Positions 19,564 to 24,866 of a stretch of 64,000 nt of DNA are shown piece after piece. The translations under genes were made by a program, and so were the position numbers. The DNA is from SAR86 cluster bacterium. Lineage in GTDB: Bacteria > Pseudomonadota > Gammaproteobacteria > Magnimaribacterales > D2472. Positions within the stretch are counted from its first letter, which is position 1. The number at the start of each line of letters is the position of its first letter. The notes beneath the pieces were generated by a model, which saw nothing but the letters and a program-made list of their open reading frames with translations, had not been told where the DNA came from and made no database searches. The stretch covers positions 602,170-666,169 of the forward strand of contig CP097973.1 in assembly GCA_023703655.1 (NCBI GenBank), written 5' to 3'.

Positions 19564-20224
19564 TTTGATCATCGACAATTTAAGTCATTCATATAATGAC
19601 GTAAAAGATAGTAATTTAATATTTCGAGATATAAATCTACAAATAAACTTGTCAGAAACATTTTCATTAACTGGTGAATCAGGATCTGGAAAATCAACAT
19701 TTATTCATTTAGTAACTGGCATGTTAAAACCATCATTAGGATCAATAACAATTGATAATAAAAAGATTTCACTCATGAAACCAAAATTGAAAGCATCTAA
19801 TTTATCAATAGTGTTTCAGTATCATTCATTACTAGAGAACTTAAATGTATTAGAAAATATCTCGCTTCCAATTAAGATATTTAAAGGCAAGCTTGATAAA
19901 GATGATCATATTTTTTTGGATAAGTTACTTGGTTCCACAAATATGATGGATAAGAAATTTAGATATCCTCATGAATTATCAGGGGGTGAAAAACAAAGAG
20001 TCTCAATAATAAGATCCATAGCTTTAAAGCCAAAATGTATTTTTATGGATGAGCCAACTGGTAATTTAGATAATGATACGTCACTACTTATACACGAATT
20101 ATGCATTGATATTCACAAGGAGTGGGGTATTGGTATATTTCTTGCTACACACGATATGGTATTTGCGAGTAAGATGGATACAAATTTTAATATTAAGAAT
20201 AAAAGGATAATAGCAAATGATTGA
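19556..20224 (+). CDS. lolD: lipoprotein-releasing ABC ATPase
   Basis: A 222-residue ABC ATPase. Walker A is GESGSGKST (40-48), the signature is LSGGEKQRVS, Walker B is CIFMDEPTGNLD, and the His switch is ATHD. Length is normal for LolD. It powers lipoprotein release by the LolC-type permease encoded just upstream. Its stop overlaps the ExbB start by 8 bases, continuing the operon. Confidence 0.95.
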   Translation: MNNLIIDNLSHSYNDVKDSNLIFRDINLQINLSETFSLTGESGSGKSTFIHLVTGMLKPSLGSITIDNKKISLMKPKLKASNLSIVFQYHSLLENLNVLENISLPIKIFKGKLDKDDHIFLDKLLGSTNMMDKKFRYPHELSGGEKQRVSIIRSIALKPKCIFMDEPTGNLDNDTSLLIHELCIDIHKEWGIGIFLATHDMVFASKMDTNFNIKNKRIIAND

Positions 20225-20822
20225 TTATATTTACCAAGGCGGATGGTTTATGTTGCCATTGTTGATTTGCTCTATTTTATTAATATCAATAGTTATTGAA
20301 CGTTTTTGGTTTTTACAAAAACGTTTAGTTGTTCCTAATGGGGTCTTAAATAATTTTGTAAGGTTAGTTAAAACAGAAAAAATTAGCATTACACAACAAG
20401 AATCATTTTCAACTACATCATCATTGGGAGCGTTATTGGTTGTTGCGTATAAATATAAAGACAAACCAAGAATGAGTCTTGAAGAAAAGATTTCTGAAAA
20501 GGCAGCTGATATTAAATTAGATCTTGAAAGGAACTTAAACATGCTAGGCATCATAGCAAGTATAAGCCCACTTCTCGGACTGTTAGGAACTGTTGTGGGA
20601 ATGATAACAGTATTTGCCAATATTAATTTACTAGGTACTTCTTCGAATGCTGATTTCCTTGCTTCAGGCATTTCAGAAGCTTTAATCACAACTGCTTTTG
20701 GGCTAATAGTTGCAGTTCCTGGCTTGGTGTTTTATAGGATGTTTCAACATAAAGTTGATAAATTAATGATAAATTTACAAAATCAAACAAGTACTTTTAT
20801 TGATTTTATAGAGTCTTTATGA
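20217..20822 (+). CDS. exbB: MotA/TolQ/ExbB family proton-channel protein
   Basis: A 201-residue membrane protein with an N-terminal helix (GGWFMLPLLICSILLISIVIE), a cytoplasmic loop and two C-terminal helices. The conserved LGIIASISPLLGLLGTVVGMI and the EALITTAFGLIVAVPGLVFY segment form the pore. With the ExbD partner encoded next, it harnesses the proton-motive force, most often to energise TonB-dependent uptake. Placement between lolD and msbA is a known gammaproteobacterial arrangement; comEC, often found here in pseudomonads, is absent. Confidence 0.93.
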   Translation: MIDYIYQGGWFMLPLLICSILLISIVIERFWFLQKRLVVPNGVLNNFVRLVKTEKISITQQESFSTTSSLGALLVVAYKYKDKPRMSLEEKISEKAADIKLDLERNLNMLGIIASISPLLGLLGTVVGMITVFANINLLGTSSNADFLASGISEALITTAFGLIVAVPGLVFYRMFQHKVDKLMINLQNQTSTFIDFIESL

Positions 20823-21226
20823 ATTTTGTTAATAACACATCCAATAAAGAAATAAACATTGAAATTACTCCATTGATTGACATTGTTTTTTTGCTTGTTA
20901 TTTTTTTTGTTGTTACTTCAAAAATTGATAGTTCACAGGCAATAGATATTGATTTACCAAATACATCTTCATTTATGAATCAATCTCAGTTGCCATCAAA
21001 TACAATCTTTTTATACGAAAATGGTTCACTAATATATAAAGATTTAACATTAACAATAAATGAAGTTGAACCGTTGATGAACTTCATTGCTAATAATATT
21101 TCAAACGAAGAAAAGATTATTCTTGCTATAGAGAAAAAAGCATATCATGAGTGGGTTATTGCGCTTATGGATGAACTTAATAAGTATGGTTTTACTGACT
21201 TACAGCTTCAAACCTATCAAAAATGA
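20819..21226 (+). CDS. exbD: ExbD/TolR family protein
   Basis: A 135-residue protein with a short cytoplasmic tail, one membrane helix (about 17-37, starting LIDIVFLLVIFFVVTS) and a periplasmic domain. The Asp of PLIDIVF is the proton-carrying residue of the family. It is the partner of the ExbB-like protein, overlapping that gene by 4 bases, and overlaps the MsbA-LpxK gene by 4 bases. The window also starts with a TonB receptor, a possible client. Confidence 0.92.
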   Translation: MNFVNNTSNKEINIEITPLIDIVFLLVIFFVVTSKIDSSQAIDIDLPNTSSFMNQSQLPSNTIFLYENGSLIYKDLTLTINEVEPLMNFIANNISNEEKIILAIEKKAYHEWVIALMDELNKYGFTDLQLQTYQK

Positions 21227-23991
21227 AAACTAATATAAAAAGGCTGCTATCTTATACACTTAGATATAAATTTTCTTTTGTGATTTCAATCATAGGATTT
21301 ATTACATTTGCAGCGGCTGATATTGCAGCAGTTGAGTGGATAAGAAGAGTTATACAGTTTATTAACGATAGTAGCGCGGTCAATCATAACTTAATAGCCT
21401 TAGCTTTAGTTTTGATTGCTTTTATGAGGGGATTAGGATTTTTTATAGGTAATTATTTTATGTCAAGAGTTGGGCTTGGTGTCGTACATGACATGCGTAA
21501 GGAGTTATTTGAAAAACTAATTAAACTACCAAAATATTATTTTGATTCCAGTCAAAGTGGCCAACTTATTAATAGGATTACATTTACAACAACTCAAGTA
21601 TCAGGTGCAACCTCAAATGCAGTAAAAACATTTGTTCGTGAAGGTACACTGTTTACCGGTCTTTTAATATATTTATTTTACTTAAATTGGAAATTAACAT
21701 TATTGCTTCTAGTAACAGCACCTTTTATAGCATTAATAGTTAATGTTGCAGGCCGTAGATTAAGAAAAATTGCTAAATCTATCCAAACTGTTATGGGTGA
21801 TGTAACTCATATAGCCTCTGAGGCTGTTGAGGGCAATACCGAGATAAAATCTTTCAATGCCGATAGTTATGAAAAAGATAGATTTAAGGATGCTAATCTT
21901 TCAAACAAAAATCAAAATTTAAAATTAGAAGCAACATCGAATTTAGCTACTCCAATAATTCAGGTATTGGTCTCTATATCATTGGCAATTGTTGCATATT
22001 TCGCTTTGGGTGATCAGTTAAATATTAATCTTGATTCAGAAACATTTGTGGCTTTCTTTACCGCAGCTGGATTAATGGCAAAACCTGTGAGACAACTCTC
22101 AAGTATAAATGCGATTATCCAAAAAGGTTTAGCTGCTTCTGAAGAAATATTTGAACAACTTGATCATGATGAAGAAGATGACCAAGGTAATGTTGATTCT
22201 AAAATTACCGGTGAAATTATATTTAAGGATGTTTCATTTTCTTATGATCAAGAAAAATTAATTCTTAATAAAATTAATTTATCCATAAATAAAAATGATA
22301 CGGTTGCATTAGTTGGCAAATCCGGATCTGGAAAAACCACAATTGCAAATCTTATTTCAAAATTATATTCCCCTGACTCAGGAAATATAACAATTGATTC
22401 TGTAAATATTGAAGACTATAAATTAAGTCACTTAAGAAATAATATTTCTATAGTAAGCCAAAATCCTACTCTATTTAATGATTCAATAGAAAAAAATATT
22501 GCTTATGGAGCCAATGATATTAATCATGAAAAAGTTGAAGAAGCAGCAAAGCTATCAGGCTGTATAGAATTTATAGAAAAATTACCTGAGGGTTTTGATA
22601 CAGAAATTGGAGATGATGGAGTCTTATTGTCAGGTGGTCAAAGACAAAGAATTGCTATAGCTAGAGCCTTTTATAAAGATGCACCAATAATAATACTTGA
22701 TGAGGCAACCTCAGCACTTGATTCAGAATCTGAAAAAATTGTTCAATCTGCAATTGATAGATTAATTAAAGAAAAAACAACCATAGTGATAGCTCATAGA
22801 CTAAGTACAATTGAAAATGCTGATAATATATTTGTTATTGATAATGGATCAGTTGTTGAAGCAGGTACTCATGGTGAATTGATTGAACTCAATGGTTTGT
22901 ACAAGTCTCTATATAAAAATATTGATTCTGAGATTGTAGACAAGTCAATAAATTCAGATAAATCAACAAAAATTATACAATCTGTAGAAATTGATGAGTC
23001 TAATTACAATTTCTTTGTTAATGCGTGGTATAAAAAAAGCCCATGGTTATGGCTATTGTCTCCAATTTCATTTGTTATTAGCCTTCTAACAAAGAACCGT
23101 TACAAAAACTTTATCAAAAATCGATCTTTAAAATATAAACCAAATATACCAGTCGTAATTGTTGGAAACATAACTGTTGGAGGGACTGGTAAGACACCAC
23201 TCGTAAAATCAATTGCATCGAAGCTCATTAATGAAAATATTAAGGTTGGTATTGTAAGTAGAGGCTATGGAGGGAAATTTAACACTACACTGGAAGTTAA
23301 TAATGCTACTACCTATAAACAAACTGGTGATGAAGCTCAAATTTTATCAAAGTTAAATACGCCATTTTTCTTGGATAAAGATAGAGCGAGAGGTGTTAAA
23401 AAATTAATAGAAAAATATCCTAATACTGAGGTAATTTTATCAGACGATGGATTACAGCATTATAATTTGGATAGGGATATAGAAATAGCTGTTATAGATG
23501 GTAAAAGAAGATTTGGTAATAAATTATTACTACCAGCAGGACCTTTAAGAGAATCAAGAAATAGACTAAAAAACGTAGATTTTATTGTAAACAATGGAGG
23601 TCCTGCTGAAGACAATGAATATTTGATGTCTTTTTTACCAAGTAAGTTTGTTCATTTAAACTCTGGTAAATCATATAGCATTGATAATTGGCCAATGCAT
23701 AATAAAGTTCATGCGGTTGCTGGATTAGGTAATCCAAATAGATTCTATAATCTTCTAAGAATGATGGGTTTTGAGTATGAAAAGCATTCGTTTCCTGACC
23801 ATCACAAATTTCAAAAAAAAGATATTAATTTTCTAGATCATTTACCGATTGTTATGTCAGAAAAAGATGCCTCTAAATGTTTACATTTTAAAAATCCTAA
23901 AATATGGTATTTAACAATTGAAGCAACTGTAGAAGATAAATTTTTTGAGAAATTAATGGAGAAAATTAATGCTAAAAGAAGAAATCCTTGA
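21223..23991 (+). CDS. MsbA-LpxK fusion: lipid A flippase joined to lipid A 4'-kinase
   Basis: One uninterrupted 922-codon frame. Residues 1 to about 575 are a full MsbA-type half-transporter: a six-helix domain, Walker A GKSGSGKTT (about 363-371), signature LSGGQRQR (about 469-476), Walker B IIILDEATSALD and a final His in IVIAHRLS. After a linker of roughly 20-25 polar residues, residues about 596-922 are a full LpxK, starting FFVNAWYKKSPWLWLLSP, with P-loop GGTGKTP near 652-658, SRGYGGK and SDDGLQHYNLDRD. MsbA flips core-lipid A; LpxK phosphorylates the lipid A disaccharide. No ATG, GTG or TTG in frame precedes the LpxK part at the junction, so separate translation is unlikely. Confidence 0.93.
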   Translation: MKTNIKRLLSYTLRYKFSFVISIIGFITFAAADIAAVEWIRRVIQFINDSSAVNHNLIALALVLIAFMRGLGFFIGNYFMSRVGLGVVHDMRKELFEKLIKLPKYYFDSSQSGQLINRITFTTTQVSGATSNAVKTFVREGTLFTGLLIYLFYLNWKLTLLLLVTAPFIALIVNVAGRRLRKIAKSIQTVMGDVTHIASEAVEGNTEIKSFNADSYEKDRFKDANLSNKNQNLKLEATSNLATPIIQVLVSISLAIVAYFALGDQLNINLDSETFVAFFTAAGLMAKPVRQLSSINAIIQKGLAASEEIFEQLDHDEEDDQGNVDSKITGEIIFKDVSFSYDQEKLILNKINLSINKNDTVALVGKSGSGKTTIANLISKLYSPDSGNITIDSVNIEDYKLSHLRNNISIVSQNPTLFNDSIEKNIAYGANDINHEKVEEAAKLSGCIEFIEKLPEGFDTEIGDDGVLLSGGQRQRIAIARAFYKDAPIIILDEATSALDSESEKIVQSAIDRLIKEKTTIVIAHRLSTIENADNIFVIDNGSVVEAGTHGELIELNGLYKSLYKNIDSEIVDKSINSDKSTKIIQSVEIDESNYNFFVNAWYKKSPWLWLLSPISFVISLLTKNRYKNFIKNRSLKYKPNIPVVIVGNITVGGTGKTPLVKSIASKLINENIKVGIVSRGYGGKFNTTLEVNNATTYKQTGDEAQILSKLNTPFFLDKDRARGVKKLIEKYPNTEVILSDDGLQHYNLDRDIEIAVIDGKRRFGNKLLLPAGPLRESRNRLKNVDFIVNNGGPAEDNEYLMSFLPSKFVHLNSGKSYSIDNWPMHNKVHAVAGLGNPNRFYNLLRMMGFEYEKHSFPDHHKFQKKDINFLDHLPIVMSEKDASKCLHFKNPKIWYLTIEATVEDKFFEKLMEKINAKRRNP

Positions 23992-24136
23992 TTTCATTGT
24001 ATGCATAAGATGTAAGGGTGATCTTAAGAAAGATGAATCATATTTGATATGTAATAAATGTAATATTAAATATCCTATTAAGAATTCAATACCTCATATG
24101 CTAGAGGAGCACATCATAGCAATTGATGAAGAATAA
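23969..24136 (+). CDS. ycaR: YcaR/Trm112-like zinc peptide (UPF0434)
   Basis: A 55-residue protein. It begins MLKEEILDFIVCIRCKGDL and contains two CxxC pairs (VCIRC and ICNKC), then IKYPIKNSIPHMLEEH. This is the UPF0434/Trm112p-like pattern, a small zinc-ribbon protein whose gene normally sits between lpxK and kdsB. It overlaps the fusion gene by 23 bases and kdsB by 11 bases, in different frames. Its cellular role is not firmly established. Confidence 0.9.
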   Translation: MLKEEILDFIVCIRCKGDLKKDESYLICNKCNIKYPIKNSIPHMLEEHIIAIDEE

Positions 24137-24866
24137 CTTTACAGTTGTAATACCTGCACGCATTGATTCTTCAAGATTGCCAAAAAAACCATTATTAAAG
24201 ATTGGAAATAAATCTCTTATTCAAAGAGTATGTGAACGCGCTAAGAAAGTTAATCCAACTCGAATAATTGTTGCAACAGATAGTAAAAAAATAAAAGCCC
24301 ATGTTGAAGATATAGGATATGAATCCATTCTAACATCTTCTAAACATAGATCAGGTCTAGATAGAATAAATGAAGTTGCTAATAAACTGCATTTTGATGA
24401 AGATGAACCCATACTAAATATTCAAGGAGATGAACCATTTGTCCCTATTAATATGATCCAGACAGTTGGTGAATCAATTAATAAAAGTTCTGATATATGT
24501 ACAGCGTCATGTAAATTTGAAAATGATGAAGACATAATTAATACAAATAATGTCAAAGTTGTAACTTCACTAAATGGTTATGCTTTATATTTTTCTAGAA
24601 CTATTATTCCAAATAGATTTACAAAAGATGCACATATTTATTACAAACATATTGGAATATATGGCTACACTAAAAATATATTAAATAAACTAAGTGAATT
24701 AGAGTCGTCGAGTCTAGAAAATGCTGAAAAACTGGAGCAACTAAGATTTCTTGATAATGGCTACAAAATAAAAGTTATTAATTTCAATTGTCATCCACCT
24801 TTAGGTATAGATACACCTGAGGACTTAAAAAAAGCAAATTTATTAATTAAAAATGAAAAAATTTAA
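24126..24866 (+). CDS. kdsB: 3-deoxy-manno-octulosonate cytidylyltransferase
   Basis: A 246-residue enzyme from ATG 24126; a TTG one codon earlier is less likely. It activates Kdo to CMP-Kdo for lipopolysaccharide inner core. Family motifs are VVIPARIDSSRLPKKPL near residue 7, RIIVATDS, the SGLDRINEVA region, NIQGDEPFVP and GIYGY. Length matches other KdsB proteins. It overlaps ycaR upstream and murB downstream, in the envelope operon. Confidence 0.96.
   Translation: MKNNFTVVIPARIDSSRLPKKPLLKIGNKSLIQRVCERAKKVNPTRIIVATDSKKIKAHVEDIGYESILTSSKHRSGLDRINEVANKLHFDEDEPILNIQGDEPFVPINMIQTVGESINKSSDICTASCKFENDEDIINTNNVKVVTSLNGYALYFSRTIIPNRFTKDAHIYYKHIGIYGYTKNILNKLSELESSSLENAEKLEQLRFLDNGYKIKVINFNCHPPLGIDTPEDLKKANLLIKNEKI

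Follow-up and report, generated by a model that had tools for sequence, protein, structure and literature searches.

In the textbook pathway the second phosphate of lipid A is added by LpxK, the 4'-kinase, and lipid A is flipped across the inner membrane by MsbA, an ABC half-transporter; the two steps are non-consecutive, with Kdo transfer and late acylation coming between them. In E. coli a regulatory branch formed by LapB (and LapC/YejM) couples build-up of the lipid A disaccharide to breakdown of LpxC. In passages of one review (PMC6286764), LpxK is termed the final absolutely required step and is proposed as a second regulatory point, and its substrate is described as possibly stimulating LpxC proteolysis by FtsH with LapB; the Aquifex LpxK residues K51, T52, D99, E100, D138, D139 and H261 are given there as catalytic or ATP/Mg-binding, and an amphipathic helix as needed for activity.

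The DNA analyzed here (the window) is a stretch of 64,000 nucleotides from SAR86 cluster bacterium (assembly GCA_023703655.1, contig CP097973.1, positions 602,170-666,169 of the forward strand). At 21223-23991 (+) it contains a single ATG-to-TGA frame encoding 922 amino acids (103.5 kDa), and, as an earlier note made from the sequence had proposed, this one open frame holds both a full-length MsbA and a full-length LpxK, each above the curated cut-offs of its family. The MsbA part matches TIGR02203 with 638.1 bits (cut-off 602) over residues 6-565 and fails the narrower MsbA model PRK11176 (561.9, with 867 needed); the LpxK part matches TIGR00682 with 236.3 bits (cut-off 91.95) and PF02606 with 305.8 bits (cut-off 27), both over residues 609-921. 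The host genome (one contig, 1.33 Mb, 92% complete) holds no second full MsbA, the next-best match being an ABC transporter of 27% identity, and no second lpxK, LpxK being seen once in this 92% complete sequence. On these family matches MsbA-LpxK is one gene encoding both a predicted flippase and a predicted kinase (Table 1). The gene order around it is that of E. coli msbA-lpxK-ycaQ-ycaR-kdsB minus ycaQ. The gene of the Trm112/YcaR-like protein shares 23 bases with the 3' end of the fusion.

Table 1. The fused gene, its parts and its neighbors, in window coordinates.
Feature	Residues	Position	Strand	Basis
TolQ/ExbB-like gene		20217..20822	+	PF01618
ExbD/TolR-like gene (4-base overlap with the start codon of the fusion)		20819..21226	+	PF02472
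MsbA part, transmembrane and nucleotide-binding domains	1-566	21223..22920	+	TIGR02203, PF00664, PF00005
MsbA Walker A	365-372	22315..22338	+	alignment of 38 fusions
Flexible linker (predicted)	567-596	22921..23010	+	AlphaFold2 model and stop-free linkers
LpxK N-terminal (membrane) helices (predicted)	597-632	23011..23118	+	AlphaFold2 model
LpxK catalytic domains	633-922	23119..23988	+	PF02606, TIGR00682, alignment to 4ehx
LpxK P-loop GNITVGGTGKT	648-658	23164..23196	+	alignment of 38 fusions
Stop codon (TGA) of the fused gene		23989..23991	+	sequence
Trm112/YcaR-like small protein (55 residues)		23969..24136	+	PF03966, 37.6 bits (cut-off 22)
KdsB (CMP-Kdo synthetase)		24123..24866	+	TIGR00466, 226.6 bits (cut-off 155.2)

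Conservation was scored in an alignment of 38 fusions, where the ATP-site motifs of both parts prove to be intact, as had been claimed for the window: all residues examined are present and conserved. In the MsbA part G365, S367, G368, G370 and K371 are invariant, S470/G471/G472 are intact with Q473 nearly invariant, and D493 and E494, as well as H525, are invariant; we take these groups to be the Walker A, signature, Walker B and H-loop, respectively. In the LpxK part the P-loop residues G648, N649, G653, G654, G656, K657 and T658 are invariant, and alignment with 4ehx places the seven Aquifex residues named above, in the same order, at K657, T658, D703, E704, D741, D742 and H860, all of them likewise invariant among the 38 fusions. 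With both halves above family cut-offs and with intact motifs, the fusion comprises a putative active MsbA and a putative active LpxK.

In an AlphaFold2 model of the fusion (mean pLDDT 77.7, pTM 0.48) residues 567-596 are coil, with pLDDT <50 for 567-591, and are followed by helices at 597-603 and 607-632 (pLDDT 82-87 for blocks 601-640), so that the N-terminal membrane helix of LpxK is present in the model; its amphipathic character was judged by eye. A linker does join the two parts, but the length of about 20-25 residues given in the earlier note is too short, about 30 residues being modelled as disordered; the gap between the MsbA and LpxK HMM matches is 43 residues. The MsbA stretches 179-190 and 241-250 are also modelled poorly, and the relative placement of the two halves is undefined in the model at this pTM. 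The best PDB match of the MsbA part is PaMsbA (9bd6), both by sequence and by fold. In a PDB fold search with the whole model the top 50 matches are all ABC transporters, so no LpxK fold is found among these, and the kinship of the kinase part to Aquifex LpxK (4ehx) rests on sequence.

No stop codon occurs at the junction of the window fusion. A stop in the junctions of relatives had been named beforehand as an observation that would speak against a fusion; 0/90 distinct SAR86-group linkers hold one in frame (sequences being told apart by their last 400 residues), whereas the other two forward frames are interrupted in 73/90 and 90/90. At the window's 31% GC, a 35-codon stretch lacks a stop with a chance of ~0.06 each, and this value together with the absence of in-frame stops from all 90 linkers makes it unlikely that the junction is open by chance. 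The spacing from P566 to P601 varies between 27 and 40 residues, with 35 in 57 of the 90 sequences; the linker sequence itself is variable, but LpxK opens with the nearly invariant residues W602, W608 and L612.

The closest named relatives are SAR86 cluster bacteria, and a search of related genomes, as the earlier note had advised, shows the same architecture recurring across the SAR86 group. The fusion is present in 108 of 112 loci (L001, L009-L087 and L107-L138, some of which share one genome), and the other four (L070, L071, L077 and L081) end at contig ends. Loci L038-L087 are 50 close named records, among them 10 that carry a broader name (e.g. Gammaproteobacteria) and were grouped by similarity (61-71% identity). 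Both parts lie in one open frame of 913-949 amino acids in 52 of 61 rows (the host and 60 relatives from its order; hand count). LpxK was found in 157 of 199 genomes of the order, and among the matches listed (~150, hand count) all but three LpxK frames are 892-966 amino acids long; most order-wide fusions are recognized from this frame length and from position. Two of these three are fused but truncated at a contig end, and the third is a contig-end piece. The fusion is present in four families of the order, and two intact separate genes were not seen in any of its genomes. An assembly or sequencing artefact was rejected because numerous assemblies made independently contain the fusion.

Internal stops flagged in SAR86 loci (L009-L015, L017, L037, L136 and L137 were covered, with G015 and G041 left out) lie outside the MsbA-LpxK frame, which is unbroken. 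Six genomes absent from the listed matches were also examined (G434, G443, G552, G508, G057 and G473), of which the first two have a complete fused frame. In G469 and G486 the fusion extends over the junction to a contig end; in G552 the frame crosses the junction before leaving the contig, and in G009 it is stop-free into the linker and then leaves the contig; in G014 and G027 the sequence stops within MsbA at a contig end; and G508 and G484 hold only pieces at contig ends, that of G508 being an LpxK piece near the contig start. G034, G023 and G050 lack any match at or below E 1e-25, and G056 and G003 have only paralogue-like matches of 25 and 28% identity. Two further loci were noted in passing: at G057:C2:1-824 (L209) an LpxK piece beginning at residue 674 lies near the contig start, where an apparent stop near base 80, within LpxK and away from the junction, ends its frame and may reflect either an assembly edge or a true break; and at G473:C1:460203-461924 (L208) there are two MsbA matches, of which the longer has 23 stops, likely reflecting poor assembly.

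The explanation towards which we lean, with some reserve, is that of one bifunctional protein that arose by stop loss and holds kinase and flippase at 1:1. The stop codon between neighboring operon genes would have been lost in the SAR86 ancestor, and one gene would now specify one inner-membrane protein with MsbA at its N-terminus and LpxK at its C-terminus, the ~30 disordered residues bridging the C-terminal end of the nucleotide-binding domain and the membrane helix that belongs to LpxK. That there is one gene product, in which the kinase is anchored to the flippase, was the central claim of the earlier note; this claim gains strong support from group-wide conservation and from the lack of a conserved start at the junction, evidence drawn at the level of sequence. 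The kinase would be tethered at the cytoplasmic face of the flippase and, if dimerization is like that of known MsbA, two kinases would be held beneath each flippase dimer, with their ratio fixed at 1:1. The last indispensable step of synthesis would in this way be matched to export capacity, as opposed to substrate being transferred from site to site. We infer chain intactness, dimer geometry, co-localization and regulatory benefit; weighing against this explanation are the undefined placement of the halves in the model and the Kdo transfer and late acylation that likely still separate the kinase and flippase steps. For E. coli, a passage of the literature gives 432 versus 206 molecules, an estimated 2:1 ratio, and if that ratio matters a forced 1:1 brings no obvious gain. 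As a hypothesis, a fixed ratio of kinase to flippase may matter in SAR86.

A fusion without benefit is a less likely but substantial alternative: a stop would have been lost by chance in a streamlining genome, the halves would work as before, and the change would be hard to undo, since after fusion any new stop deletes LpxK and a neutral change is thereby locked in as well. The setting for such an event is common in other Gammaproteobacteria, where the genes are adjacent and often share a frame. Among 35 loci with separate genes, 33 have their first candidate lpxK start -4 to 57 bases past the msbA stop, and 33 have the two genes in a shared frame, although this set is enriched for in-frame pairs by selection. 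The varying linker sequence and the sporadic fusions found elsewhere also fit a neutral origin. Outside the order, at least seven fusions occur among 365 class genomes (369 sampled), in six families (gammaproteobacterial genomes G105, G124, G145, G238, G253, G323 and G418; loci L143, L147, L159, L161, L162, L172 and L173). In a sample of 398 genomes of the phylum, in which only matches at E 1e-140 or better were counted, 17 matches cover both parts and are stop-free only in the host and G145. Thus fusion seems rare elsewhere though one base change suffices where the frame is shared, and this rarity (at least 7/365, and in the phylum sample, at its threshold, only G145 besides the host) argues against chance alone. 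Many non-SAR86 genomes have adjacent genes that share a frame but are divided by at least one stop; these were rejected as fusions and counted as two separate genes. Also rejected were G424, whose LpxK frame is 950 amino acids long with MsbA in another frame, and G315, G107, G092 and G280, whose long or odd MsbA frames belong to separate genes.

In a tree built by a quick method from 60 rows, 25 of them fused, SAR86 forms one side of a branch with SH-aLRT 99. The fused state requires at least five changes on this tree, but strongly supported branches force only two, and the number of fusion origins is therefore not firm. The non-SAR86 fusions are placed among separate-gene rows, with the exception of L147 (G105), which lies near SAR86 and could share its fusion origin; it is a long row of unsure placement.

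The regulatory branch described for E. coli was also sought. None of 61 genomes has a LapB zinc-ribbon match above the family cut-off (G041 has one below it), LapC/YejM is matched in 0/61, and an E. coli LapB query finds a strong match in 0/19 genomes of the order, with two weak ones of ~1e-4 (G000 and G010). The E. coli route of LpxC control seems to be missing from SAR86. With the same query, a LapB match <1e-40 is obtained in 29 of the 34 genomes where no fusion was seen and in 5 of the 7 non-SAR86 fused genomes, the two without it being G105 and G253 (58% complete). Retention of LapB in fused genomes weakens loss of LapB as the cause of the fusion and opposes a simple replacement of LapB by it, and it counts against the fusion as a general LapB substitute. 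A built-in governor between synthesis and export, in which, with the LapB (and LapC/YejM) branch lacking in SAR86, the covalent tether would match the kinase step to the number or state of the flippase, possibly with allosteric signalling between both ATP-using halves, is for us a doubtful extension of the bifunctional reading.

It appears quite improbable that the cell produces two proteins instead, whether through translation starting internally or through a protease cutting the linker. The model shows a disordered linker, and at least one in-frame ATG, GTG or TTG is present in 34 of the 90 distinct linkers; however, 56 of the 90 have none, and no position across the last 32 residues of MsbA and the linker is common to more than 15/90. 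In the window fusion, in agreement with the earlier note, the junction has no in-frame start, there being no ATG, GTG or TTG at residues 560-611. The nearest are TTG 559, still within MsbA, and TTG 612, within the LpxK helix. The former might conceivably initiate an LpxK that retains its helix, but a start-type codon stands at residue 559 in only 4/90 sequences; the latter lies inside the helix that is needed for activity according to passages of PMC6286764. With no start codon at 560-611, active LpxK would most likely come from the fused chain.

Channelling of lipid A precursors, suggested in the earlier note and meaning here that the disaccharide is phosphorylated and then passed along in a metabolon to which the flippase belongs, would suit a kinase tethered near the cytoplasmic face and a step termed the final absolutely required one (in passages of PMC6286764), but is very improbable and not supported, as WaaA-type (57/61 genomes, one copy in the host) and LpxL/M-type (59/61, two copies in the host) family matches indicate that the kinase and flippase steps are likely not consecutive and that MsbA would not be expected to export chiefly what the kinase produces, and as no fixed arrangement of the halves is predicted.

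If, as we prefer, the fusion is one bifunctional protein, the lipid A route of SAR86 appears to pass through one ~103 kDa protein that carries two non-consecutive steps. Dependence of LPS synthesis on a set kinase:flippase ratio, or on physical contact, becomes testable; and if both halves are active, a large cargo can be borne by MsbA at its C-terminus and by LpxK at its N-terminus. Passages of PMC4758666 describe SAR86 as apparently without the signal recognition particle and its receptor, an absence that would bear on the insertion of a large membrane protein such as MsbA-LpxK. The earlier note knew of no described fusion of this kind, which agrees with our search: in the portions of the open-licence literature it reached, no report of an MsbA-LpxK fusion was found. 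PMC4758666 was considered as a report on SAR86 lpxK and rejected, the portion concerned being an unrelated Leptospira study. Both families are known, and their joining is a new arrangement.

Compared with E. coli, the SAR86 locus has both families, the order msbA to lpxK, and the ycaR-like and kdsB genes that follow. It differs in that msbA and lpxK of E. coli are separate and adjacent, as the earlier note had stated, with a 4-base overlap and in different frames, whereas in SAR86 they form one frame; and in that ycaQ, which sits between lpxK and ycaR in E. coli, is absent from that position in the window. Most sampled Gammaproteobacteria likewise have the same families in the same order but as separate genes. 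Known MsbA (TIGR02203; PDB 9bd6, 6bpl and others) is homologous to the window fusion over its full length and matches it in the ATP-site motifs, but in the SAR86 protein the MsbA C-terminus continues into the linker and the kinase. Known LpxK (TIGR00682, PF02606; PDB 4ehx, 4itl) shares the full family match, the P-loop, the catalytic Asp-His pair and the N-terminal helix, but the N-terminus of SAR86 LpxK is joined to MsbA and, in the window, LpxK lacks a separate start codon at the junction. In the non-SAR86 gammaproteobacterial fusions MsbA is followed by LpxK in one frame as in SAR86; their occurrence is sporadic, and in two of them (L147 and L159) the linkers are longer than those of SAR86 and visibly unlike them.
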